Shown piece after piece: positions 10,517 to 39,557 of a stretch of DNA of 64,000 nt. The DNA is from Tubulanus polymorphus (Eukaryota; Nemertea; Palaeonemertea; Tubulaniformes; Tubulanidae), in the NCBI RefSeq assembly GCF_964204645.1, contig NC_134027.1, forward strand, positions 3,274,485 through 3,338,484, given 5' to 3'. The notes below the pieces were generated by a model. That model was not told the origin of the DNA. It ran no database searches and worked only from the letters and a program-made list of their open reading frames with translations. Made by a program: the position numbers and the translations under genes. Position 1 is the stretch's first letter; the number at the start of each line of letters is the position of its first letter.

Positions 10517-13500
10517 ATGGATCTATTGAAAAGGTGAATTTTCATGGTTGTTTAAAAAAAAAAAAATTTCGCAAATTTTCATTATTCTTTTCAGCAGGGC
10601 GTTGGTCATTTTTATTGTGTTACTTGTGCACACCACAAGCGCTATTTCATCACCGGTATGTCATACCGACACACTATGCACTACTTCATATGGATATGCT
10701 GAAAATAGCAGAAACATAATCAACCAGCCTTTCAGAAGTCTTGGTTTATATGGTCGGTGGGGCTACGCACAATGTCTATCTGCAAGGGGCGTTTATTACT
10801 TGAAACTTCTTTCAAATACCAGAGAACGAGGTAAAAGGACTCCAGTGTACGTTGCCGATATAACAGTCACATATTCTTGTGTGAATGAAGAATGCACGAT
10901 TGGTGTTAAGTACCAGATGAGGGATACATGTGCAGTTGGAGGTAAATCTGCCACACTTCATTATGCCAACGTCAAAATCAGTGCTAAATTCGATATGTTA
11001 ACATTTCATCACCCCGATGTAGCGTATGAATACATGTATTGGGCAAAAACAGTGTCTAGTTATGGATTTGATCCCATTAAGTTAAAATGTCGAGGAATGG
11101 GCTGCGAAAAACTGGTAAACCTTGGTAAGGCAGGGAAAAAACAACCGAACGTCTGTATAGTGGTAGAGGGATTAGTGTGTGGATTTTGCCATCCTGAAAG
11201 ATGCGATGCTAAATCAACCACAATAAAAACCACAACGACGAAGCTTACAACGTCAAAGAAACCAGAAACTACTACCGTAACGACGGAATCCAAAACTACA
11301 TCTCTAGAAACCACAGCTGCTGCTTTCACAGAGGCTACTACAAAACAGGCTAGTTTGAAATCTACTGCAGGAGGAACCCCATCAGCTGCTGGCACTGAGG
11401 TCACTACACAGGCGGCTGGATCAGCATCTACTGCAGGAGGAACCACATCAGTTGCTGGCACTGAATCCACGACACAGGCGGCTGGATCAGCATCTACAGC
11501 AGGAGGAACCCCATCAGCTGCTGGCACTGAATCCACGACACAGGCCGCTGGATCAGCATCTACTGCAGGAGGAACCCCTTCAGCTGCTGGCACTGAGGCC
11601 ACTACACAACCCACTGGAACAGCATCTACTGCAGGAGGAAACCCTTCAGCTGCTGGCACTGAATCCACTACACAACCCACTGGATCAGCATCTACTGCAG
11701 GAGGAACCCCATCAGCTGCTGGCACTGAAGCCACTACACAAGTGACTGGATCAGCATCAACAGCAGGAGGAACCCCATCAGTTTCTGGCACTGAATCCAC
11801 TACAAAAGCGACTGTATCAGCATCTACTGCAGGAGGAACCCCATCAGTTTCTGGCACTGAATCCACGACACAGGCCGCTGGATCAGTATCTACTACAGGA
11901 GGAACCCCGTCAGTTGCTGGCACTGCATCCACGACACAGGCGGCTGGATCAGCATCTACAGCAGGAGGAACCCCATCAGTTTCTGGCACTGAATCCACGA
12001 CACAGGCGGCTGGATCAGCATCTACAGCAGGAGGAACCCCATCAGTTTCTGGCACTGAATCCACTACACAGGCCGCTGGATCAGCATCTACCGCAGGAGG
12101 AACCCCATCAGTTGCTGGCACTGAATCCACGACACAGGCCGCTGGATCAGCATCTACTGCAGGAGGAACCCCATCAGCTTCTGGCACTGAAGCCACTACA
12201 CAAGTGACTGGATCAGTATCTACTGCAGGAGGAACCCCATCAGCTGCAGGCGCTGAATCCACGACACAGGCCGCTGGATCAGCATCTACTACAGGAGGAA
12301 CCCCATCAGTTGCTGGCACTGAATCCACGACACAGGCCGCTGGATCAGCATCTACTGCAGGAGGAACCCCATCAGCTTCTGGCACTGAAGCCACTACACA
12401 AGTGACTGGATCAGTATCTACAGCAGGAGGAACCCCATCAGTTTCTGGCACTGAATCCACGACACAGGCGGCTGGATCAGCATCTACTGCTGGAGGAACC
12501 CCATCAGCTTCTGGCACTGAATCCACTACAAAAGCGACTGTATCAGCATCTACTGCAGGAGGAACCCCATCGGTTTCTGGCACTGAATCCACGACACAGG
12601 CGGCTGGATTAGCATCTACAGCAGGAGGAACCCCATCAGTTTCTGGCACTGAATCCACGACACAGGCGGCTGGATCAGCATCTACTGCAGGAGGAACCCC
12701 ATCAGCTTCTGGAACTGAATCCACTACAAAAGCGACTGTATCAGCATCTACTGCAGGAGGAACCCCATCGGTTTCTGGCACTGAATCCACTACAAAAGCG
12801 ACTGGATCAGCATCTACTGCTGGAGGAACCCCATCAGTTTCTGGCACTGAATCCACGACACAGGCGGCAGGATCAGCATCTACTGCTGGAGGAACCCCAT
12901 CAGTTTCTGGCACTGAATCCACGACACAGGCGGCTGGATCAGCATCTACAGCAGGAGGAACCCCATCAGTTTCTGGCACTGAATCCACGACACAGGCGGC
13001 AGGATCAGCATCTACAGCAGGAGGAACCCCATCAGTTTCTGGCACTGAATCCACGACACAGGCGGCAGGATCAGCATCTACTGCAGGAGGAACCCCATCA
13101 GTTTCTGGCACTGAATCCACTACACGGGCGGCTGGATCAGTATCTACTGCAGGAGGGACCCCTTCAGCTGCTGGCACTGAAGCCACTACACAAGTGACTG
13201 GATCAGTATCTACTGCAGGAGGAACTCCATCAGCTGCAGGCACTGAATCCACTACACAGGCCGCTCGATCAGCATTTACTGCAGGAGGAACCCCATCAGC
13301 TGCTGGCACTGAATCCACGACAAAGGCCGCTGGATCGGCATCTACTACAGGAGGAACCCCATCAGCTGCTGGCACTGAATCCACTACACAGGCCGCTGGA
13401 TCAGCATCTACCGCAGGAGGAACCCCGTCAGTTGCGGGCACTGAATCCACGACACAGGCGGCTGGATCGGCATCTACTACAGGAGGAACCCCATCAGCTG

Positions 13501-16500
13501 CTGGCACTGAATCCACTACACAGGCTGCTGGATCAGCATCTACTGCAGGAGGAACCCCATCAGTTGCTGGCACTGAATCCACTACACAGGCCGCTCGATC
13601 AGCATCTACTGCAGGAGGAACCCCATCAGCTGCTGGCACTGAATCCACGACAAAGGCCGCTGGATCGGCATCTACTACAGGAGGAACCCCATCAGCTGCT
13701 GGCACTGAATCCACTACACAGGCCGCTGGATCAGTATCTACTGCAGGAGGAACCCCATCAGCTGCAGGCGCTGAATCCACGACACAGGCCGCTGGATCAG
13801 CATCTACTACAGGAGGAACCCCATCAGCTGCTGGCACTGAATCCACTACACAGGCTGCTGGATCAGCATCTACTGCAGGAGGAACCCCATCAGTTGCTGG
13901 CACTGAATCCACGACACAGGTGGCTGGATCAGTATCTACTGCAGGAGGAACCCCATCAGCTTCTGGCACCGAAGCCACTACACAAGTGACTGGATCAGTA
14001 TCTACTACAGGAGGAACCCCATCAGCTGCAGGCACTGAATCCACGACACAGGCCGCTGGATCAGCATCTACTGCAGGAGGAACCCCATCGGCTGCTGGCA
14101 CTGTATCCACTACAAAAGCGACTGGATCAGTATCCACTGCAGGAGGAACCCCATCAGCTGCAGGCACTGAATCCACGACACAGGCCGCTGGATCAGCATC
14201 TACTGCAGGAGGAACCCCATCAGTTGCTGGCACTGAATCCACGACACAGGCGGCTGGATCAGTATCTACAGCAGGAGGAACCCCATCATTTGCTGGCACT
14301 GAATCCACGACACAGGCGGCTGGATCAGCATCTACTGCAGGAGGGACCCCATCAGCTGCTGGCACTGAATCCACGACACAAGCGGCTGGATCAGCATCTA
14401 CAGCAGGAGGAACCCCATCAGTTTCTGGCACTGAATCCACGACACAGATGGCTGGATCAGCATCTACTGCAGGAGGGACCCCATCAGCTGCTGGCACTGA
14501 AACCACTACACAAGTGACTGGATCAGCATCTACTGCAGGAGGAACCCCATCAGTTTCTGGCACTGAATCCACGACACAGGCGGCTGGATCAGCATCTACT
14601 GCTGGAGGAACCCCATCAGTTTCTGGCACTGAATCCACGACACAGGCGGCTGGATCAGCATCTACTGCAGGAGGAACCCCATCAGTTTCTGGCACTGAAT
14701 CCACGACACAGGCGGCTGGATCAGCATCTACTGCTGGAGGAACCCCATCAGTTTCTGGCACTGAATCCACGACACAGATGGCTGGATCAGCATCTACTGC
14801 AGGAGGGACCCCATCAGCTGCTGGCACTGAAACCACTACACAAGTGACTGGATCAGCATCTACTGCAGGAGGAACCCCATCAGTTTCTGGCACTGAATCC
14901 ACGACACAGGCGGCTGGATCAGCATCTACTGCTGGAGGAACCCCATCAGTTTCTGGCACTGAATCCACGACACAGGCGGCTGGATCAGCATCTACTGCTG
15001 GAGTAACCCCATCAGTTTCTGGCACTGAATCCACTACACAGGCGGCTGGATCAGCATCTACTGCAGGAGGAACCCCATCAGTTTCTGGCACTGAATCCAC
15101 GACACAGGCGGCTGGATCAGCATCTACTGCTGGAGGAACCCCATCAGTTTCTGGCACTGAATCCACGACACAGGCGGCTGGATCAGCATCTACTGCTGGA
15201 GTAACCCCATCAGTTTCTGGCACTGAATCCACTACACAGGCGGCTGGATCAGCATCTACAGCAGGAGGAACCCCATCAGTTTCTGGCACTGAATCCACGA
15301 CACAGGCGGCTGGATCAGCATCTACTGCTGGAGTAACCCCATCAGTTTCTGGCACTGAATCCACGACACAGGCGGCTGGATCAGCATCTACTGCTGGAGG
15401 AACCCCATCAGTTTCTGGCACTGAATCCACGACACAGGCGGCTGGATCAGCATCTACTGCTGGAGGAACCCCATCAGTTTCTGGTACTGAATCCACGACA
15501 CAGGCGGCTGGATCAGCATCTACTGCAGGAGGAACCCCATCAGTTTCTGGCACTGAATCCACTACAAAAGCGACTGGATCAGCATCTACTGCAGGAGGAA
15601 CCCCATCAGTTTCTGGCACTGAATCCACGACACAGGCGGCTGGATCAGCATCTACTGCTGGAGTAACCCCATCAGTTTCTGGCACTGAATCCACTACACA
15701 GGCCGCTGGATCAGCATCTACAGCAGGAGGGACCCCATCAGTTTCTGGCACTGAATCCACGACAGAGGCTGCTGGATCAGTATCTACTACAGGAGGAACC
15801 CCGTCAGTTGCTGGCACTGCATCCACGACACAGGCGGCTGGAACAGCATCAACTGCTGGAGGAACCCCATCAGTTTCTGGCACTGAATCCACTACACAGG
15901 CCGCTGGATCAGCATCTACAGCAGGAGGAACCCCATCAGTTTCTGGCACTGAAGCCACTACACAAGTGACTGGATCAGTATCTACTGCAGGAGGAACCCC
16001 ATCAGCTGCAGGCACTGAATCCACGACACAGGCTGCTGGATCAGCATCTACTGCAGGAGGAACCCCATCAGCTGCTGGCACTGAATCCACTACAAAAGCG
16101 ACTGGATCAGTATCCACTGCAGGAGGAACCCCATCAGCTGCAGGCACTGAATCCACGACACAGGCCGCTGGATCAGCATCTACTGCCGGAGGAACCCCAT
16201 CAGTTGCTGGCACTGAATCCACGACACAGGCGGCTGGATCAGTATCTACTGCAGGAGGAACCCCATCAGTTGCTGGCACTGAATCCACGACACAGGCGAC
16301 TGGATCAGCATCTACTGCTGGAGGGACCCCATCAGTTTCTGGCACTGAATCCACGACACAGGCGGCTGGATCAGCATCTACAGCAGGAGGAACCCCATCA
16401 GTTTCTGGCACTGAATCCACTACAAAAGCGACTGTATCAGCATCTACTGCAGGAGGAACCCCATCAGTTTCTGGCACTGAATCCACGACACAGGCGGCTG

Positions 16501-19500
16501 GATCGGCATCTACAGCAGGAGGAACCCCATCAGTTTCTGGCACTGAATCCACGACACAGGCGGCTGGATCAGTATCTACTGCAGGAGGAACCCCATCAGT
16601 TTCTGGCACTGAATCCACGACACAGGCGGCTGGATCGGCATCTACAGCAGGAGGAACCCCGTCAGTTGCTGGCACTGCATCCACGACACAGGCGGCTGGA
16701 TCAGCATCAACTGCTGGAGGAACCCCATCAGTTTCTGGCACTGAATCCACTACACAGGCCGCTGGATCAGCATCTACAGCAGGAGGAACCCCATCAGTTT
16801 CTGGCACTGAATCCACGACACAGATGGCTGGATCAGCATCTACTGCAGGAGGGACCCCATCAGCTGCTGGCACTGAAACCACTACACAAGTGACTGGATC
16901 AGTATCTACTGCAGGAGGAACCCCATCAGCTGCAGGCACTGAATCCACGACACAGGCCGCTGGATCAGCATCTACTGCAGGAGGAACCCCATCAGCTGCT
17001 GGCACTGAATCCACGACAAAGGCCGCTGGATCAGCATCTACTACAGGAGGAACCCCATCAGCTGCTGGCACTGAATCCACTACACAGGCCGCTGGATCAG
17101 CATCTACAGCAGGAGGAACCCCATCAGTTTCTGGCACTGAAGCCACTACACAAGTGACTGGATCAGTATCTACTGCAGGAGGAACCCCATCAGCTGCAGG
17201 CACTGAATCCACGACACAGGCTGCTGGATCAGCATCTACTGCAGGAGGAACCCCATCAGCTGCTGGCACTGAATCCACTACAAAAGCGACTGGATCAGTA
17301 TCCACTGCAGGAGGAACCCCATCAGCTGCAGGCACTGAATCCACGACACAGGCCGCTGGATCAGCATCTACTGCCGGAGGAACCCCATCAGTTGCTGGCA
17401 CTGAATCCACGACACAGGCGGCTGGATCAGTATCTACTGCAGGAGGAACCCCATCAGTTGCTGGCACTGAATCCACGACACAGGCGACTGGATCAGCATC
17501 TACTGCTGGAGGGACACCATCAGTTTCTGGCACTGAATCCACGACACAGGCGGCTGGATCAGCATCTACAGCAGGAGGAACCCCATCAGTTTCTGGCACT
17601 GAATCCACTACAAAAGCGACTGTATCAGCATCTACTGCAGGAGGAACCCCATCAGTTTCTGGCACTGAATCCACGACACAGGCGGCTGGATCAGCATCTA
17701 CTGCAGGAGGAACCCCATCAGTTTCTGGCACTGAATCCACGACACAGGCTGCTGGATCGGCATCTACAGCAGGAGGAACCCCGTCAGTTGCTGGCACTGC
17801 ATCCACGACACAGGCGGCTGGATCAGCATCAACTGCTGGAGGAACCCCATCAGTTTCTGGCACTGAATCCACTACACAGGCCGCTGGATCAGCATCTACA
17901 GCAGGAGGAACCCCATCAGTTTCTGGCACTGAATCCACGACACAGATGGCTGGATCAGCATCTACTGCAGGAGGGACCCCATCAGCTGCTGGCACTGAAA
18001 CCACTACACAAGCGACTGGATCAGTATCTACTGCAGGAGGAACCCCATCAGCTGCAGGCACTGAATCCACGACACAGGCCGCTGGATCAGCATCTACTGC
18101 AGGAGGAACCCCATCAGCTGCTGGCACTGAATCCACTACACAGGCCGCTGGATCAGCATCTACCGCAGGAGGAACCCCATCAGTTGCGGGCACTGAATCC
18201 ACGACACAGGCGGCTGGATCAGCCTCTACTGCAGGAGGAACCCCATCAGCTTCTGGCACTGAAGCCACTACACAAGTGACTGGATCAGTATCTACTGCAG
18301 GAGGAACCCCATCAGCTGCAAGCGCTGAATCCACGACACAGGCCGCTGGATCAGCATCTACTACAGGAGGAACCCCATCAGCTGCTGGCACTGAATCCAC
18401 TACACAGGCTGCTGGATCAGCATCTACTGCAGGAGGAACCCCATCAGTTGCTGGCACTGAATCCACGACACAGGTGGCTGGATCAGCATCTACTGCAGGA
18501 GGAACCCCATCAGCTTCTGGCACTGAAGCCACTACACAAGTGACTGGATCAGTATCTACTGCAGGAGGAACCCCATCAGTTTCTGGCACTGAAGCCACTA
18601 CACAAGTGACTGGATCAGTATCTACTGCAGGAGGAACCCCATCAGCTGCAGGCACTGAATCCACGACACAGGCTGCTGGATCAGCATCTACTGCAGGAGG
18701 AACCCCATCAGCTGCTGGCACTGAATCCACTACAAAAGCGACTGGATCAGTATCCACTGCAGGAGGAACCCCATCAGCTGCAGGCACTGAATCCACGACA
18801 CAGGCCGCTGGATCAGCATCTACTGCCGGAGGAACCCCATCAGTTGCTGGCACTGAATCCACGACACAGGCGGCTGGATCAGTATCTACTGCAGGAGGAA
18901 CCCCATCAGTTGCTGGCACTGAATCCACGACACAGGCGGCTGGATCAGCATCTACTGCAGGAGGGACCCCTTCAGCTGCTGGCACTGAGTCCACTACAAA
19001 AGCGACTGGATCAGCATCTACAGCAGGAGGAACCCCGTCAGTTTCTGGCACTGAATCCACGACACAGGCGGCTGGATCAGCATCTACTGCTGGAGTAACC
19101 CCATCAGTTTCTGGCACTGAATCCACGACACAGGCGGCTGCATCAGCATCTACTGCAGGAGGGACCCCATCAGTTTCTGGCACTGAATCCACGACACAGG
19201 CGGCTGGATCAGCATCTACAGCAGGAGGAACCCCATCAGTTTCTGGCACTGAATCCACTACAAAAGCGACTGTATCAGCATCTACTGCAGGAGGAACCCC
19301 ATCAGTTTCTGGCACTGAATCCACGACACAGGCGGCTGGATCGGCATCTACAGCAGGAGGAACCCCATCAGTTTCTGGCACTGAATCCACGACACAGGCG
19401 GCTGGATCAGCATCTACTGCAGGAGGAACCCCATCAGTTTCTGGCACTGAATCCACGACAGAGGCTGCTGGATCAGTATCTACTACAGGAGGAACCCCGT

Positions 19501-22500
19501 CAGTTGCTGGCACTGCATCCACGACACAGGCGGCTGGATCAGCATCAACTGCTGGAGGAACCCCATCAGTTTCTGGCACTGAATCCACTAAAAAAGCGAC
19601 TGGATCAGCATCTACTGCAGGAGGAACCCCATCAGTTTCTGGCACTGAATCCACTACACGGGCGGCTGGATCAGTATCTACTGCAGGAGGGACCCCTTCA
19701 GCTGCTGGCACTGAAGCCACTACACAAGTGACTGGATCAGCATCTACTGCAGGAGGAACCCCATCAGCTGCTGGCACTGAGGCCACTACACAAGTGACTG
19801 GATCAGTATCTACTGCAGGAGGAACCCCATCAGCTGCAGGCACTGAATCCACTACACAGGCCGCTGGATCAGCATATACTGCAGGAGGAACCCCATCAGC
19901 TGCTGGCACTGAATCCACGACAAAGGCCGCTGGATCAGCATCTACTACAGGAGGAACCCCATCAGCTGCTGGCACTGAATCCACTACACAGGCCGCTGGA
20001 TCAGTATCTACTGCAGGAGGAACCCCATCAGTTTCTGGCACTGAAACCACTACACAAGTGACTGGATCAGTATCTACTGCAGGAGGAACCCCATCAGCTG
20101 CTGGCACTGAATCCACTACAAAAGCGACTGGATCAGTATCCACTGCAGGAGGAACCCCATCAGCTGCAGGCACTGAATCCACGACACAGGCGGCTGGATC
20201 AGTATCTACTGCAGGAGGAACCCCATCAGCTGCAGGCACTGAATCCACGACACAGGCGACTGGATCAGCATCTACTGCAGGAGGAACCCCATCAGCTGCT
20301 GGCACTGCATCCACGACACAGGCGGCTGGATCAGCATCTACTGCAGGAGGGACCCCTTCAGCTGCTGGCACTGAAGCCACTACACAAGTGACTGGATCAG
20401 CATCTACAGCAGGAGGAACCCCATCAGTTTCTGGCACTGAATCCACGACACAGGCGGCTGGATCAGCATCTACTGCAGGAGGAACCCCGTCAGTTGCTGG
20501 CACTGCATCCACGACACAGGCGGCTGGATCAGCATCTACAGCAGGAGGAACCCCATCAGTTTCTGGCACTGAATCCACGACACAGGCGGCTGGATCAGCA
20601 TCTACTGCAGGAGGAACCCCATCAGCTGCTGGCACTGAATCCACTACAAAAGCGACTGGATCAGCATCTACTGCAGGAGGAACCCCTTCAGCTGCTGGCA
20701 CTGAAGCCACTACACAAGTGACTGGATCAGCATCTACTGCAGGAGGGACCCCTTCAGCTGCTGGCACTGAATCCACGACACAAGTGACTGTATCAGCATC
20801 TACTGCAGGAGGAACCCCATCGGTTTCTGGCACTGAATCCACTACACAGGCGGCTGGATCAGCATCTACTGCTGGAGGAACCCCATCAGTTTTTGGCACT
20901 GAATCCACGACACAGGCGGCTGGATCAGCATCTACTGCTGGAGGAACCCCATCAGTTTCTGGCACTGAATCCACGACACAGGCGGCTGGATCAGCATCTA
21001 CTGCTGGAGGAACCCCATCAGTTTTTGGCACTGAATCCACGACACAGGCGGCAGGATCAGCATCTACTGCAGGAGGAACCCCATCAGTTTCTGGCACTGA
21101 ATCCACGACACAGGCGGCTGGATCAGCATCTACTGCTGGAGGAACCCCATCAGCTTCTGGCACTGAAGCCACTACACAAGTGACTGGATCAGCATCTACT
21201 GCAGGAGGAACCCCATCAGCTGCAGGCACTGAATCCACTACACAGGCCGCTGGATCAGCATCTACTGCAGGAGGAACCCCATCAGCTGCTGGCACTGAAT
21301 CCACGACACAGGCCGCTGGATCAGCATCTACTGCAGGAGGAACCCCATCAGCTTCTGGCACTGAATCCACTACACAGGCCGCTGGATCAGCATCAACTGC
21401 AGGAGGAACCCCATCAGCTTCTGGCACTGAATCCACTACACAGGCCGCTGGATCAGCATCTACAGCAGGAGGAACCCCATCAGTTTCTGGCACTGAATCC
21501 ACGACACAGGCGGCTGGATCAGCATCTACAGCAGGAGGAACCCCATCAGTTTCTGGCACTGAATCCACGACACAGGCGGCTGGATCAGCATCTACTGCAG
21601 GAGGGACCCCATCAGCTTCTGGCACTGAAGCCACTACACAAGTGACTGGATCAGCATCTACTGCAGGAGGAACCCCATCAGCTGCAGGCACTGAATCCAC
21701 TACACAGGCCGCTGGATCAGCATCTACTGCAGGAGGAACCCCATCAGCTGCTGGCACTGAATCCACGACACAGGCCGCTGGATCAGCATCTACTGCAGGA
21801 GGAACCCCATCAGCTGCAGGCACTGAATCCACGACACAAGTGACTGGATCAGCATCTACTGCAGGAGGAACCCCATCAGCTGCTGGCACTGAATCCACGA
21901 CACAGGCCGCTGGATCAGCATCTACTGCAGGAGGAACCCCATCAGCTTCTGGCACTGAATCCACTACACAGGCCGCTAGATCAGCATCTACAGCAGGAGG
22001 AACCCCATCAGTTTCTGGCACTGAATCCACGACACAGGCGGCAGGATCAGCATCTACTGCAGGAGGAACCCCATCAGTTTCTGGCACTGAATCCACTACA
22101 AAAGCGACTAGATCAGCATCTACAGCAGGAGGAACCCCATCAGTTTCTGGCACTGAATCCACTACAAAAGCGACTGGATCAGCATCTACTGCAGGAGGAA
22201 CCCCATCAGTTTCTGGCACTGAATCCACTACAAAAGCGACTGGATCAGCATCTACTGCTGGAGGAACCCCATCAGTTTCTGGCACTGAATCCACGACACA
22301 GGCGGCAGGATCAGCATCTACTGCAGGAGGAACCCCATCAGTTTCTGGCACTGAATCCACTACAAAAGCGACTAGATCAGCATCTACAGCAGGAGGAACC
22401 CCATCAGTTTCTGGCACTGAATCCACTACAAAAGCGACTGGATCAGCATCTACTGCAGGAGGAACCCCATCAGTTTCTGGCACTGAATCCACTACACAGG

Positions 22501-24194
22501 CGGCTGGATCAGTATCTACTAGAGGAGGGACTCCTTCAGCTGCTGGCACTGAAGCCACTACACAAGTGACTGGATCAGCATCTACTGCAGGAGGAACCCC
22601 ATCAGCTGCTGGCACTGAGGCCACTACACAGGCGGCTGGATCAGCATCTACTGCCGGAGGAACCCCATCAGCTGCAGGCACTGAGGCCACTACACAGGCC
22701 GCTGGATCAGTATCTACTGCAGGAGGAACCCCATCAGATGCTGGCACTGAATCCACTACACAAGCGACTGGATCAGTATCCACTGCAGGAGGAACCCCAT
22801 CAGCTGCTGGCACTGAGGCCACTACACAACCCACTGGATCAGCATCTACTGCAGGAGGAACCCCATCAGCTGCTGGCACTGAATCCACGACACAGGCCGC
22901 TGGATCAGCATCTACCGCAGGAGGAACCCCATCAGTTGCTGGCACTGAATCCACTACACAGGCCGCTGGATCAGTATCTACCGCAGGAGGAACCCCATCA
23001 GCTGCTGGCACTGAATCCACTACGCAAGCGACTGGATCAGTATCTAGTGCAGGAGGAACCCCATCAGCTGCTGGCACTGAATCCACTACACAGGCGACTG
23101 GATCAGTATCTACTGCAGGAGGAACCCCGTCAGCTGCTGGCACTGAAGCAACTACACAACCCACTGGATCAGCATCTACTGCAGGAGGAATTCCATCAGC
23201 TGCTGGCACTGAATCCACGACACAGACGACTGGATCAGTATCTACTGCAGGAGGAACCCCTTCAGCTGCTCGCACTGAATCCACGACACAGGCCGCTGGA
23301 TCAGCATCTACTGCAGGAGGAACCCCATCAGCTGCTGGCACTGAATCCACGACACAGGCGACTGGATCAGTATCTACTGCAGGAGGAACCCCTTCAGCTG
23401 CTCGCACTGAATCCACGACACAGGCCGCTGGATCAGCATCTACTGCAGGAGGAACCCCATCAGTTGCAGGCACTGAGGCCACTACACAGGCCGCTGGATC
23501 AGCATCTACTGCAGGAGGAACCCCATCAGCTGCTGGCACTGAGGCCACGACACAGGCCGCTGGATCAGCATCTACTGCTGGAGGAACCCCATCAGCTGCT
23601 GGCACTGAGGCCACTACACAGGCGGCTGGATCAGTATCTACTGTAGGAGGAATCCCATCAACTACCGAAACAACGACTACTCAAGCGATAACTTGTAACC
23701 CTGTTTGGTCACCAATCAGTTCCCGTATGAGTCCATACAAATTCAATATTGGTGGTGATAGCACGAAGGAAGGTTGGGCCCAGTGTATATCTTCTCCGGG
23801 GAAATATATATCTTTCCTGTATATGAAAGGTTTGACAAAGAAAAAAGTCGGTATCGCAAGTGTAACTTATACGTGTGATACATTCCCATGTAGTATACAC
23901 GTAACACTTGACCTAAAACCATGCAAAGCTGGTAGCACCACGTCGAAAATCCTCTCGAAGTCCGCTCTGCGTCTAACGCTTGGCAAATCGGCACTCTCCA
24001 GCTCGGGACCAGAAGATTACGAATATAAATTGGAATATCCCTCATACAGTGATTTTTCTAATTTCGGAACGATCTCTAAGGCATGCAAAGACGCAAGTGG
24101 AAAATGTGATTTCACATCTATATCAGAAGTCGATGGAAAGCCTCCACTTGTGTGTGTTGCTGTTTATGCAGAGATTTGCGGTTTATGTAATTAG
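10517..24194 (+). CDS. Giant secreted mucin-like protein with two homologous cysteine-rich caps
   Basis: Proposed CDS is join(10517..10533, 10595..24194), 4538 residues. The long frame lacks an upstream in-frame ATG, but a 17-nt coding exon (ATG at 10517, donor AAAAG|GTGAAT) joined to an acceptor at 10594/10595 gives a classic signal peptide, MDLLKSRALVIFIVLLVHTT. Residues about 28-209 form a cap with Cys at 28, 34, 66, 101, 106, 118, 171, 176, 193, 201, 204 and 209. A short Thr-rich linker follows, then 185 exact 22-residue units (about 41% Ser/Thr) from 11418 to 23627, then a second cap (about 23,690-24,191) with matching Cys spacing, ending ICGLCN. No transmembrane helix or GPI tail is visible, so the product should be secreted and heavily O-glycosylated. 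I recognise no VWD, CK or other standard mucin domain. The product probably contributes to a mucus, adhesive or cuticular secretion. An AATAAA at 24479 would place a MITE inside the 3' UTR. Ultra-long exon (13.6 kb). Confidence 0.85.
10534..10597 (+). other. Proposed short first intron with tandem NAGNAG acceptor
   Basis: GTGAATTTT opens the intron and TTCTTTTCAGCAG closes it. Two acceptors three bases apart, ending at 10594 and 10597, would both keep frame and give signal peptides starting MDLLKSRALV or MDLLKRALV. Intron length would be 61 or 64 nt, close to other short introns here (74 nt in LTA4H, 75 nt in the cysteine-rich gene). The alternative is a more distant first exon spliced to the same acceptor. 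Confidence 0.5.
11352..23691 (+). repeat. 66-bp tandem repeat array, 185 full units plus degenerate edges
   Basis: The unit encodes 22 residues, beginning GSASTAGGTPSAAG and ending STTQAA. Unit starts (GGA codon) at 11418 and 23628 are exactly 185 x 66 bp apart, and the phase at every 660-base step I checked is unchanged, so there is no net frame-breaking indel. Variation is concentrated at a few positions: SAAG/SVSG/SVAG/SASG; TES/TEA/TET; Q or K; and AA, VT, AT or PT at the end. Variants are linked, e.g. TEATTQ is usually followed by VT. The first (11352) and last (about 23,628-23,691) units are degenerate, as expected at the edges of an array homogenised by unequal exchange. Confidence 0.97.
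15941..18110 (+). repeat. Higher-order duplication within the mucin array
   Basis: A block of about 16-17 units starting at 15941 recurs from 17129, an offset of 1188 bp (18 units), with the same order of unit variants, including the rare ones (GTATCC start, CAGATGG, GCATCC). After about 16,600 the offset changes to 1122 bp (17 units), so one copy has gained or lost one unit. A third partial copy starts near 18581 (offset 2640 bp, 40 units, from the first). This points to segmental duplication of many units at once as well as single-unit change. Confidence 0.8.
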
Positions 24195-35148: not shown

Positions 35149-38100
35149 TCATGATTTTATCGCCTTAATTATCGGAATATAAAACTGAGCCATTAGTGCA
35201 TCATCTTTAAGACACCGTTGGTAGTCCAAACAGCGCACCGTATCTAACAAACCAGTTGGAGGTAAACTCGAGTCTATGATTATTGGGATTACTCGTTTGC
35301 CAGTATTAAAAGCTACGCGCAACTCTGCCATGCATCTGGCGTCGTTGTAGTAATTTCGACTTAACACTGCTATCATTGTTTTAGACATGATAATGTCCTC
35401 CCTCGTTATATTAATAATTGAACTGCGGGAGTTCGCGCTATATCCTGGGTCGGGGTTTGTTGAGTAATTCATCCTGGTGGCTACGCTCGGTTTTTCACAA
35501 AGCAGGTCACAAAACGGTTGTTCTGCTGTTTCTAATAAAGCCACTAGTTCACATTGAACCCAAGCATCATCTTCTTCTGAACTCGAGATGAAAGTCTCAA
35601 ACTCAACGTACGCTTTTGTGTCGAGAGGGGAAACATTTTCCTGAAAATAAACGACTTTCCTTTTTATGTTTCACGATATCATTGGTTGGTTTTGAAGATT
35701 GAGTCAAAACTTACCTGGTCAATTGAATTTTGTTGTATATTAGGAGGAATAGCAATTGTACGTATCACACCGTTACATATGAATTTCAATTCCCCGCCTG
35801 TAAAGTTCTGTTCTAATGAACCGCCGTGTGTGGAAAGAACTGAAAGGTGCAACTTGTTATTATAGCTACAATGACACGTAATTCCGCACGAGTATTTCAA
35901 AAAAGGAAATTGTTTTAGCCGAATCAGATTTATAATTTCATCAACCCATCGCAAAGTTCGAAAAATATCTTCTTTATTCATTTTATCCTCGCCAATCGTT
36001 GTCTTTATTAAGTTTTGTCCAATCGATGCTTTCATTAATTCTAGTTTACAAAATACGCCAGGACCAAACTTAAATATACCACAATCCTTGAAGAGGCGAG
36101 GAGTAAAAGTTCCAATTGACATTTGGTAACATTTAGCCAAAAGGGTCAAAAACATAGCTTCCGGATAGAAATAACCAAAATCGAAATAAAAGTCGAGCGA
36201 AAGTTTGCATACCGGTAACACGGACTCGTTCACGCTTAACGGCAATCTATAAGGTACAATGAACATCTCTTCCGATTCGGTAGAGAACGGTATGATCAAA
36301 TTCACTGCTCGAAGGATGTCTAAAATACAATCTAAATCACCGACTGTATTTTGTAGCATAAAGCGAAGTAAAGCGGGCGATGTGACACCTGTACGACACA
36401 GCGAATTCCAAGCCGATTCTAGGTGTTTAGGAACGACTGTCAGATAGTTTCCGGCTAGTGATTCTACGCAATCGGCGAGAATCTGCGGTTCGAGTAAAAC
36501 GTAACGAAATAATCGAGGATCATTCGATTTGAAGAATATTTCTCCGTAATCATTAAAAAACTCCAGCATCCTTAGGAAATGAGCTTCTTTCTCAAATCCG
36601 ATGTCTTCTTTCATCTTCGACCACAAATCGAAATAACTAACGATACAATCACGGCGATAATTCCGTCTGATTGTTTTAACATAATCTAAAAATCCTAACC
36701 ACTTAACTGGTATCAAACGATTTGCGTATTCGGCTTCACGTGTAGTCTTTAGGATCATTTCTTTTAATTCATCGATATCCGTATCCCATCCATTGCATTC
36801 TCGATATCTATTTTCTAACGTGAACAGTGGACATTCATTTCGACTCGAGTTTAGAGCGAGACGTCCACCGAATACTGGATACAGTTCTCTCTTCATCATA
36901 GAAGCAATTCCATTAGTTTGATTGTTGTCTAACGATGCCCTATGTGTACCTATTAGAAATATCAACGAATCTCGATGGTGAGCATGGGCAAAAACAGAAT
37001 TCAACCAATAGAGGATTCGTTCCATTTGCCAATCTGGGCGTTCGTAAGCATCTTCTAGCGAGAAAACGACCAAATATATGGAATGCTTTGCCATAAATAT
37101 ATGGTGTCCCACATGGTACAATTCATTTCCCGAACAGTCCAACAGACAAAGTCTTTGTGGCCAGGTTGTTGGGTTGCTGCATTTTATATCCCAAATCAGC
37201 TGGGCGGGAACCGAATCATTTCGGATAAGGTAATGCCTGCGTATTTCCGATGCTATTGCTATCGTGCATCCTAATATAGCTAAAAACAAGTACCAGCCAT
37301 CGGTGAACAATGCAGTCCAAGAAAACCTCCATCCCATATATATTCCACCTAACATGCCTACCTCCCATCCATAAACGATCACCAATAACCTGCTGTGTCC
37401 GAATAGTCGTCTTAGTCTGTGGCCAAAAGTTAAACCCCTTACAAACGAAAATCCGTAGATAACTCCAGTGCATGTCGCCAGTAGTAATTCCGATTCGATT
37501 TTCATTGAAACCATCATTACTAACATTGTTAATGCCGAAGTAAGCGAACAGACACAAATCAATATTCGTCTTTTCATGTTATGGAATTTGCTCTGAATGA
37601 GAACGCCGAGGACAAAGCTCAAAAACAGGAAAATTATTTGCAGGATATTCATGATTTCGTTTTCGCCACTTTTTAGGTTGAAAGAATGAGTTTGAGCGAG
37701 TTGTGTAACGATTCCCTTGTAAGCTGGAGGAATTAGCGTACATAACGCTACGGCCATACCAGCTCTACCCCCAGTTCCCAGTGATGCGCTTAGCAATGCA
37801 AAAACTCCCGACGAGATGAAAGTGCGGGATAAGATGGCCCATAGCGCATCATACTTTTCCATCGTCCGAATTCCTGAACACATTTCTGGTAGCATTATCG
37901 TACTTATATAGTTTAGAATAACTAGGATGATCGCCAGTCCGTTGCCTTGGTTGAAACCCTCGATGTCATTTTTCCACAATATGGAAACTGGAACGACAGC
38001 TAACAGAAGTAACGGTGTAAAACCTAAACGTATTCCGTGTAAACATAACAGGATGAACGTTATTATACCGGTAATGAAAAAGGTCACCATCAATATAACT

Positions 38101-38504
38101 CCATTGAGTAAGAGTATGTATATCGGAGTTGCGATATGTGTCAAGAGATTACTCGTTCCTAGTATAGTGAAATACGAAGCAGCTTGTTGCACTTCAGTGT
38201 AGCGACTGTTGTCAATCTTTTTGTACGAACCATCAACAAAATATTGCTCGATTCCAAATGTGCTCTCTCCGTCTCTTTCTGAATGGGGAATTCCCATTAG
38301 TAATTTTCGCGAACTTGTTTTTCCGACTCCCGAATCTCCGAGAAACATAACTTTCCTGTAAGCACAAGTGATATTCCCAATTTTCATCGCATTTTCATAT
38401 TTCTCTTTAACTTCAGCGCCGTAGATACTCATTTCTTCTTGCGATAAGTTCAAGTTTTGCAGCGTTTTTGCCCTAATAGCCGCCATTCTTTCTGAACCTG
38501 ACAT
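35149..38504 (-). CDS. Roc(split by multi-pass membrane block)-COR-TIR protein
   Basis: Two coding exons (38504-35715 and 35640-35149), joined CAG|GAA in phase 0, give 1093 residues. The start MSGSERMAAI follows a probable 5'UTR splice acceptor at 38569. Residues 51-100 begin a Roc GTPase: P-loop GDSGVGKT (56-63) and switch-like STFGIE (81-86). From about 121 to 420 there are nine to ten hydrophobic helices. The Roc fold then resumes: LLDCSGNE (454-461, G3) and GTHRASLD (519-526, G4). A COR domain follows at about 590-920. The 3' exon is a TIR domain (935-1093) with FETFISSSEEDDAW, a DPG in the BB-loop region, IAVLSRNYY, and Glu1036 in CMAEL at the position of the NADase glutamate of other TIRs. 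No LRRs. Probably a membrane-embedded ROCO GTPase in innate-immune or stress signalling (inference). Confidence 0.85.
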
Positions 38505-38789: not shown

Positions 38790-39557
38790 ATGCGCAGCAA
38801 CATGTTTCATGTACAATTCCTCGTCTTGTCATTCTTAGTCGTTACGGTATCGAGCCGTCAACCAAGAAGAGCGGGTGATCAGCCACCAGAAGGATACTGT
38901 CAGGATTTCAAATGGGGCGGAAAGATACGAGTCCATTGGTACGCGTGCTGTAATAATTGTAGAAGCGGTAACAAGACGGGTGTACCATGCGACGGGAAAA
39001 CTTATCATTCTGCATCTGCGTGTAAGTATGATTAGAACTGGTGCCCACTGGCGCCGATCACAGTTTTTATGACAATAATCCTCTCGTTGATTTTAGATAC
39101 ATACTGTGATGGTTGTGGAGTTGATTCCAAAGCAGGAGATGGAGCCAAACGCATGGCCGACAAGTTCGCATGTGGAGGTTGCAGGGGTCAAGACCAAATA
39201 GCCAAAGAGTGTGAAACTTGGTGGCGCAAAATCCCTGGCTTCTGTTGGTCATTTATCAAGTGTTTCGAAAAGAAATGCAAAATGGCGCACGGAAAAGGTG
39301 GACTTACGCCAAAATCATGTTACAACGGGATATGTGAGGCGGGTGAAACACCCGAGAACTGCCCCATGGATTGTTGTTACAAAAATAATCCTAAATGTGA
39401 TTGGACACTAACAAATGCTGGTAATAAGACATGTATTCCATTATGTTGTAGTCAGCCAGGATGCTGCAATGCGGCCGTGTCCATTGTCCAAGGCAATATC
39501 AGAATGTTGAGCCTGATTTTGTTTTCTTTGTTAGTTTCCCTTAAAATCTGTGAGTGA
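38790..39557 (+). CDS. Cysteine-rich secreted protein, probably GPI-anchored
   Basis: Two exons (38790-39021 and 39097-39557, phase 1) give 230 residues. An N-terminal signal peptide (FHVQFLVLSFLVVTVSS) is followed by a cysteine-rich region with CCNNC, CDGCG, CGGC, CCYKNNPKC and CCSQPGCC clusters. NGICEAGETPENCPMDC (about 183-199) resembles the C-x-NGxCxxGExxxNCPxDC pattern found in various extracellular proteins. The last 17 residues are hydrophobic (MLSLILFSLLVSL) with a short polar tail, fitting a GPI signal. The overall family is not recognised. It is divergent from the Roc-COR-TIR gene. A broken partial copy lies 250 bp downstream. Confidence 0.7.

Follow-up and report, generated by a model that had tools for sequence, protein, structure and literature searches.

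A ribbon-worm family of ROCO-TIR proteins whose Roc domain is split by a putative polytopic membrane block

ROCO proteins have generally been treated as switches that are soluble or bound peripherally, and the action of LRRK2, the Parkinson's protein, at membranes is debated. ROCO and TIR parts are already known to meet in one protein: the accessible portions of three papers describe Aplysia TLR/MyD88-like genes with Roc and COR (PMC9334734), the actiniarian NG1 (PMC5094078), and a Chondrus TPR-ROCO-TIR protein (PMC11378527). Here, we describe a ROCO-TIR gene, every part of which lies on the minus strand of a 64,000-nucleotide stretch of Tubulanus polymorphus DNA (assembly GCF_964204645.1, contig NC_134027.1, positions 3,274,485 to 3,338,484 of the forward strand; hereafter the window, within which all positions are numbered). 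Judged from its sequence and those of its homologues, the ribbon worm holds a small family, at three diverged loci, in which a Roc domain split by a predicted polytopic hydrophobic block is followed by COR and TIR. We read the product as a membrane-embedded ROCO-TIR protein that may work as a membrane-fixed receptor or adaptor, a reading to which we assign a probability of roughly 0.57.

Exon 1 (38504..35715; 2,790 bp), a stop-free run of 930 codons, contains the start codon, the N-terminal Roc half (Roc-N), the block, the C-terminal Roc half (Roc-C), and COR. A 74-bp phase 0 intron with GT..AG borders (35714..35641) separates it from exon 2 (35640..35149), which encodes the TIR domain (163 residues and a stop). 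Roc-N spans residues 51-100 (38205..38354), with the P-loop GDSGVGKT at residues 56-63 (38316-38339) and a G2-like STFGIE. The putative membrane block, of about ten hydrophobic helices, spans residues 128-429 (37218..38123) as drawn from hydropathy, a low-confidence structure model, profile correlation, and charge pattern. Roc-C covers residues 447-590 (36735..37166), with the G3 motif LLDCSGNE at 454-461 (37122-37145) and GTHRASLD, at the place of G4, at 519-526 (36927-36950). The COR region sits immediately after Roc, at residues 591-919 (35748..36734). An earlier sequence-only reading of this DNA had proposed, without naming a strand, the same P-loop and G3 positions within a single uninterrupted 2.79-kb exon, as found here.

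The two halves match Roc in sequence. Pfam Roc scored 33.8 bits in the window protein and 36.2, 34.4, and 52.8 bits in three homologues introduced below (P0002, L003, and P0004, respectively), against a cut-off of 27, and in all four the match was divided into two stretches. The best solved-structure match of a four-sequence profile was the LRRK2 Roc domain (6oje_A; E 6.1e-7), again in two colinear pieces: profile positions 40-81 aligned to residues 16-58 and positions 435-536 to residues 65-160, so that a gap of 353 profile positions in the split family stands against six residues in LRRK2. The first piece was weak by itself, at 6.6 bits. The P-loop (G-x4-GK[ST]), the G2 threonine, and the G3 DxxG are retained in all four split homologues, and K62, T82, F83, and G84 of Roc-N are invariant. 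Roc-C is the best conserved part of the protein (39-62% identity over six pairs). The G1-G3 spacing of 398, 397, 377, and 413 residues is not that of a continuous Roc domain, where the two motifs lie some tens of residues apart.

ROCO genes elsewhere in the genome served as a comparison. A Pfam Roc search yielded 95 matches, three of which lay within frames of at least 1,000 residues (L017, L027, and L029), and only these three were used for comparison. The three split-family loci were not among the 95 matches because each Roc half is weak alone, and other split Rocs would also be missed. In all three comparison genes, Roc-COR lies in one long frame without a membrane block, and Roc exceeds the Pfam cut-off; COR-A does so in L029 only, and leucine-rich repeats (LRRs) do so in L017 and L027 and fall below their cut-offs in L029. 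The G1-G3 distances are 46, 84, and 46 residues (with G3 of L029 placed manually). L027 (2275-5313, minus strand, contig C9), an LRR-Roc-COR gene, carries a short acidic insert between G2 and G3, where the block sits in the split family. According to the accessible portions of the published work, switch I length varies greatly among Roco proteins (PMC6337361), and brown-algal ROC domains range from 77 to 467 residues through truncation or insertion (PMC11378527). Taken together, the L027 insert, the variation of switch I, and the brown-algal inserts suggest that the place after switch I is tolerant; since inserts there occur both in L027 and in print, we treat the long G1-G3 spacing as a variant feature.

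Between the Roc halves, hydrophobic segments were called from mean hydropathy over 19 residues at a threshold of 1.2 or, more strictly, 1.5. At 1.2 the window protein has eleven segments in residues 114-417, ten of them from residue 136 on; at 1.5 it has eight separate segments. The predicted structure, a low-confidence model, places ten long helices at residues 128-429. The sequence-only reading had noted about 390 residues with nine to ten helices between the P-loop and the G3/G4 motifs, an observation confirmed here. For both Roc halves to share a cytosolic fold, the number of helices must be even; ten is the best count, and an even number is not established. When the ten-helix model was placed on the window protein and transferred through the alignment to P0002, L003, and P0004, the ratios of Lys/Arg inside to outside were 12:5, 17:2, 7:2, and 16:5 in that order (8:5, 10:2, 4:2, and 7:5 without the two end segments). 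The hydropathy profiles of the aligned blocks correlated in six of six pairs (r 0.50-0.71, against a maximum of 0.35-0.48 among 98 shifts per pair), a comparison that the alignment itself partly favours. In all three genome pairs, codon positions 1 and 2 of the block are more conserved than position 3.

Block identity is 16-34% over the six pairs, lower than that of Roc-N (28-54%), Roc-C, or COR (31-43%) and matched by the short linkers and the N terminus. Such rapid change, which sensor parts may show, together with the size of the block (about 300 residues) and its retained hydropathy pattern, would fit a receptor or transporter-like sensor in the membrane to which Roc halves had been added, the membrane part (for a ligand, ion, or lipid) being the main unit and Roc-COR-TIR its output. 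However, rapid change is also expected of plain anchors, the block matches no Pfam family at an E value of 1 or below, and the genome holds no free-standing copy detectable at that level, in a search of limited sensitivity that also missed the block of L003. We consider this reading improbable.

The sequence-only reading had suggested looking for the same architecture elsewhere, and it recurs. Across the genome (267.8 Mb, 77 contigs), exon 1 matched three loci, on contigs C3 (the window), C5 (43% identity), and C1 (31%), and the TIR exon matched the same three (100, 44, and 32%, respectively). At each locus, exon 1 joins the TIR exon in phase 0, in agreement with NCBI model P0002 on C5 and by manual reading on C1 (L003/L006). 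A fourth homologue, P0004 (ENA, 951 residues), retains the block, has 32% identity over 913 residues, and is alike in architecture apart from showing no visible TIR. The sequence lies on a 502,501-bp ENA contig, and the C-terminal residues of the protein look like intron read-through. In a tree of 477 Roc and COR columns (seven sequences, with long branches), the four split proteins separated from L017, L027, and L029 with support 100, and P0004 fell outside the three Tubulanus copies with support 91. From this position, the block probably predates the three copies.

This recurrence bears on whether the arrangement is an artefact, with the helix-encoding segment belonging to another transcript, a misassembly, or a pseudogene. 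One NCBI model could be taken in that sense: P0001 (LOC141901616 isoform X2, Tubulanus polymorphus) is truncated to 772 residues. It shares the start Met of the window gene and is identical to the window protein up to residue 764, and its tail, FFPHTAVH, maps to 35839, past an implied alternative intron of 373 bp (35840..36212) that, in this predicted model, shifts the frame inside COR and removes the TIR. However, P0001 and P0002 both retain the block, P0002 is joined to its TIR exon, the frames are open, and selection is visible at codon positions. Because three loci on three contigs and the fourth homologue agree, with open frames and codon-position selection, misassembly or a wrong exon was rejected, and we regard an artefact of any of these kinds as very improbable.

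As the sequence-only reading had stated, exon 2 is a TIR domain carrying a glutamate at residue 1036: Pfam TIR_2 scored 39, 34.1, and 43.7 bits for the three TIR exons (cut-off, 28), and E1036 (residue 106 of exon 2, codon 35323-35325) is invariant among them. The further proposal of an NADase is at most possible. A profile of the three TIRs was closest to the solved TIRs of TLR6, TLR10, and MyD88 (E 4e-7 to about 1e-5), with E values of 0.005-0.085 to a TIR named as an ADP-ribosyl cyclase, plant TIRs, a CRISPR-associated TIR, and an NAD+ hydrolase. The residue aligned to E1036 is glutamate in TLR6 and TLR10 and glutamine in MyD88; the glutamate therefore does not single out an NADase. Given the nearer TLR6, TLR10, and MyD88 matches and a glutamate common to TLR6, NADase activity was rejected as the default TIR output. 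Membership among Toll-like receptors was likewise rejected, given that no LRR family was matched (Pfam, E value of 1 or below) and that at least eight hydrophobic segments take the place of a single helix.

Several observations weigh against a membrane-embedded ROCO-TIR receptor or adaptor. The structure model is poor (mean predicted local distance difference test score [pLDDT], 39.6; predicted template modelling score, 0.29; residues 1-478 below 50 pLDDT), and a joint Roc fold is not shown. The hydropathy threshold that yields ten segments in the window protein (from residue 136) yields nine in both P0002 and P0004 and eight in L003, whose block has only 16-18% identity to the others. No TIR is visible in P0004, and predicted isoform X2 lacks one as well. 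COR-A scores 17.9 bits in the window protein, against a cut-off of 35.3, and falls below that cut-off in three of the four homologues. Finally, GTHRASLD, earlier named as G4, does occupy the G4 position, yet the G4 aspartate, which recognises guanine in Ras-like proteins, is missing. The four sequences there are GTHRA, GTFKA, GTNKS, and GTRKA (GTHLD in LRRK2), none of which fits the guanine-specificity motif [NT][KH]xD, and the earlier view of a guanine-specific GTPase is thus unsupported.

The missing aspartate suggests, from sequence, a weak guanine preference; the switch may therefore be slow, nucleotide-promiscuous, or mainly structural. At its extreme, this leads to a scaffold anchored in the membrane whose Roc has decayed, in which Roc-COR would dimerise and position the TIR without GTP switching and the block would only fix the protein to a compartment. 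The aspartate is absent in four of four split proteins and present in three of three other ROCOs of the genome (GTKLD in L017, GTHAD in L027, and GTHAD in L029); DxxG is followed by N, N, S, or D, never by Q; and the N-terminal half has little similarity to LRRK2 by score. On the other hand, the P-loop, G2 threonine, and DxxG persist in all four, Roc-C is conserved above every other part, LRRK2 itself carries R after DFAG, and G4-G5 motifs are variable in Roco proteins, as the accessible portion of PMC6337361 states. We hold a decayed scaffold to be unlikely, yet worth keeping in view.

If the membrane-embedded reading is right, the block would have entered Roc in the G2-G3 interval, in the loop that follows switch I, an insert-tolerant place. 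With ten helices, both Roc halves would return to the cytosolic face and form one nucleotide-binding domain beside the membrane. COR would dimerise Roc, by analogy with other Roco proteins; the state of the nucleotide or of the membrane domain could alter the dimer and bring TIR domains together, and the clustered TIRs might recruit MyD88-like or other TIR adaptors. The most likely role would be that of a membrane-fixed innate-immune or stress receptor or adaptor, anchored by the block, which might also act as a sensor. The coupling of GTP state, membrane sensing, and TIR output put forward in the sequence-only reading is at most possible. More speculatively, and in our view doubtful, one chain might combine a membrane receptor, a nucleotide switch (perhaps not strictly guanine), and a TIR adaptor, with a ten-helix membrane domain around which the switch region of a Ras-like domain is arranged setting the nucleotide state and hence TIR assembly, in a receptor class so far undescribed. 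A natural ROCO with its Roc domain threaded through a membrane would mean that a Ras-like fold can accommodate a polytopic insertion behind switch I, would allow the states of membrane and nucleotide to be tested together with TIR output within one chain, and would broaden the range of known animal TIR signalling designs.

Elsewhere in the window, a 66-bp tandem repeat at 11360-23660 (186 copies, 91% match) lies inside a plus-strand stop-to-stop frame (10530..24194; 4,554 residues), and the minus strand over it is also open, for 4,206 residues. By reading, the unit encodes 22 residues of Ser/Thr/Ala/Gly, perhaps as a giant mucin-like repeat exon. The divergent neighbour of the ROCO gene, at 38790-39557 on the plus strand, seems by reading to span two or more exons; its small product is rich in cysteine and probably secreted.

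The order of domains had been thought undescribed; this does not hold for ROCO with TIR, which is in print, and does hold for a Roc split by membrane helices, of which we found no description in the literature searched. As described in the accessible portions of their sources, the published ROCO-TIR proteins have named LRR, kinase, death, EF-hand, Mbt, or TPR parts, with no membrane helices named in Roc; an Aplysia TIR gene with three membrane helices (LOC101863390) is not described there as a ROCO; and the brown-algal ROC inserts (PMC11378527) are of non-conserved sequence, with membrane helices not named. In the window protein, Pfam found no LRR, ankyrin, or kinase family at an E value of 1 or below. 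TLR6, TLR10, and MyD88 have similar TIRs, whereas in the split family the TIR comes after Roc-COR, with no LRR found and about ten helices rather than one. Relative to LRRK2, LRRK1, and the bacterial Roco of C. tepidum, the split family differs by a block of about ten predicted helices in Roc, absence of the G4 aspartate, and a terminal TIR. As far as these sources extend, what appears new is thus not the ROCO-TIR combination but the kind of insert, membrane helices within Roc.
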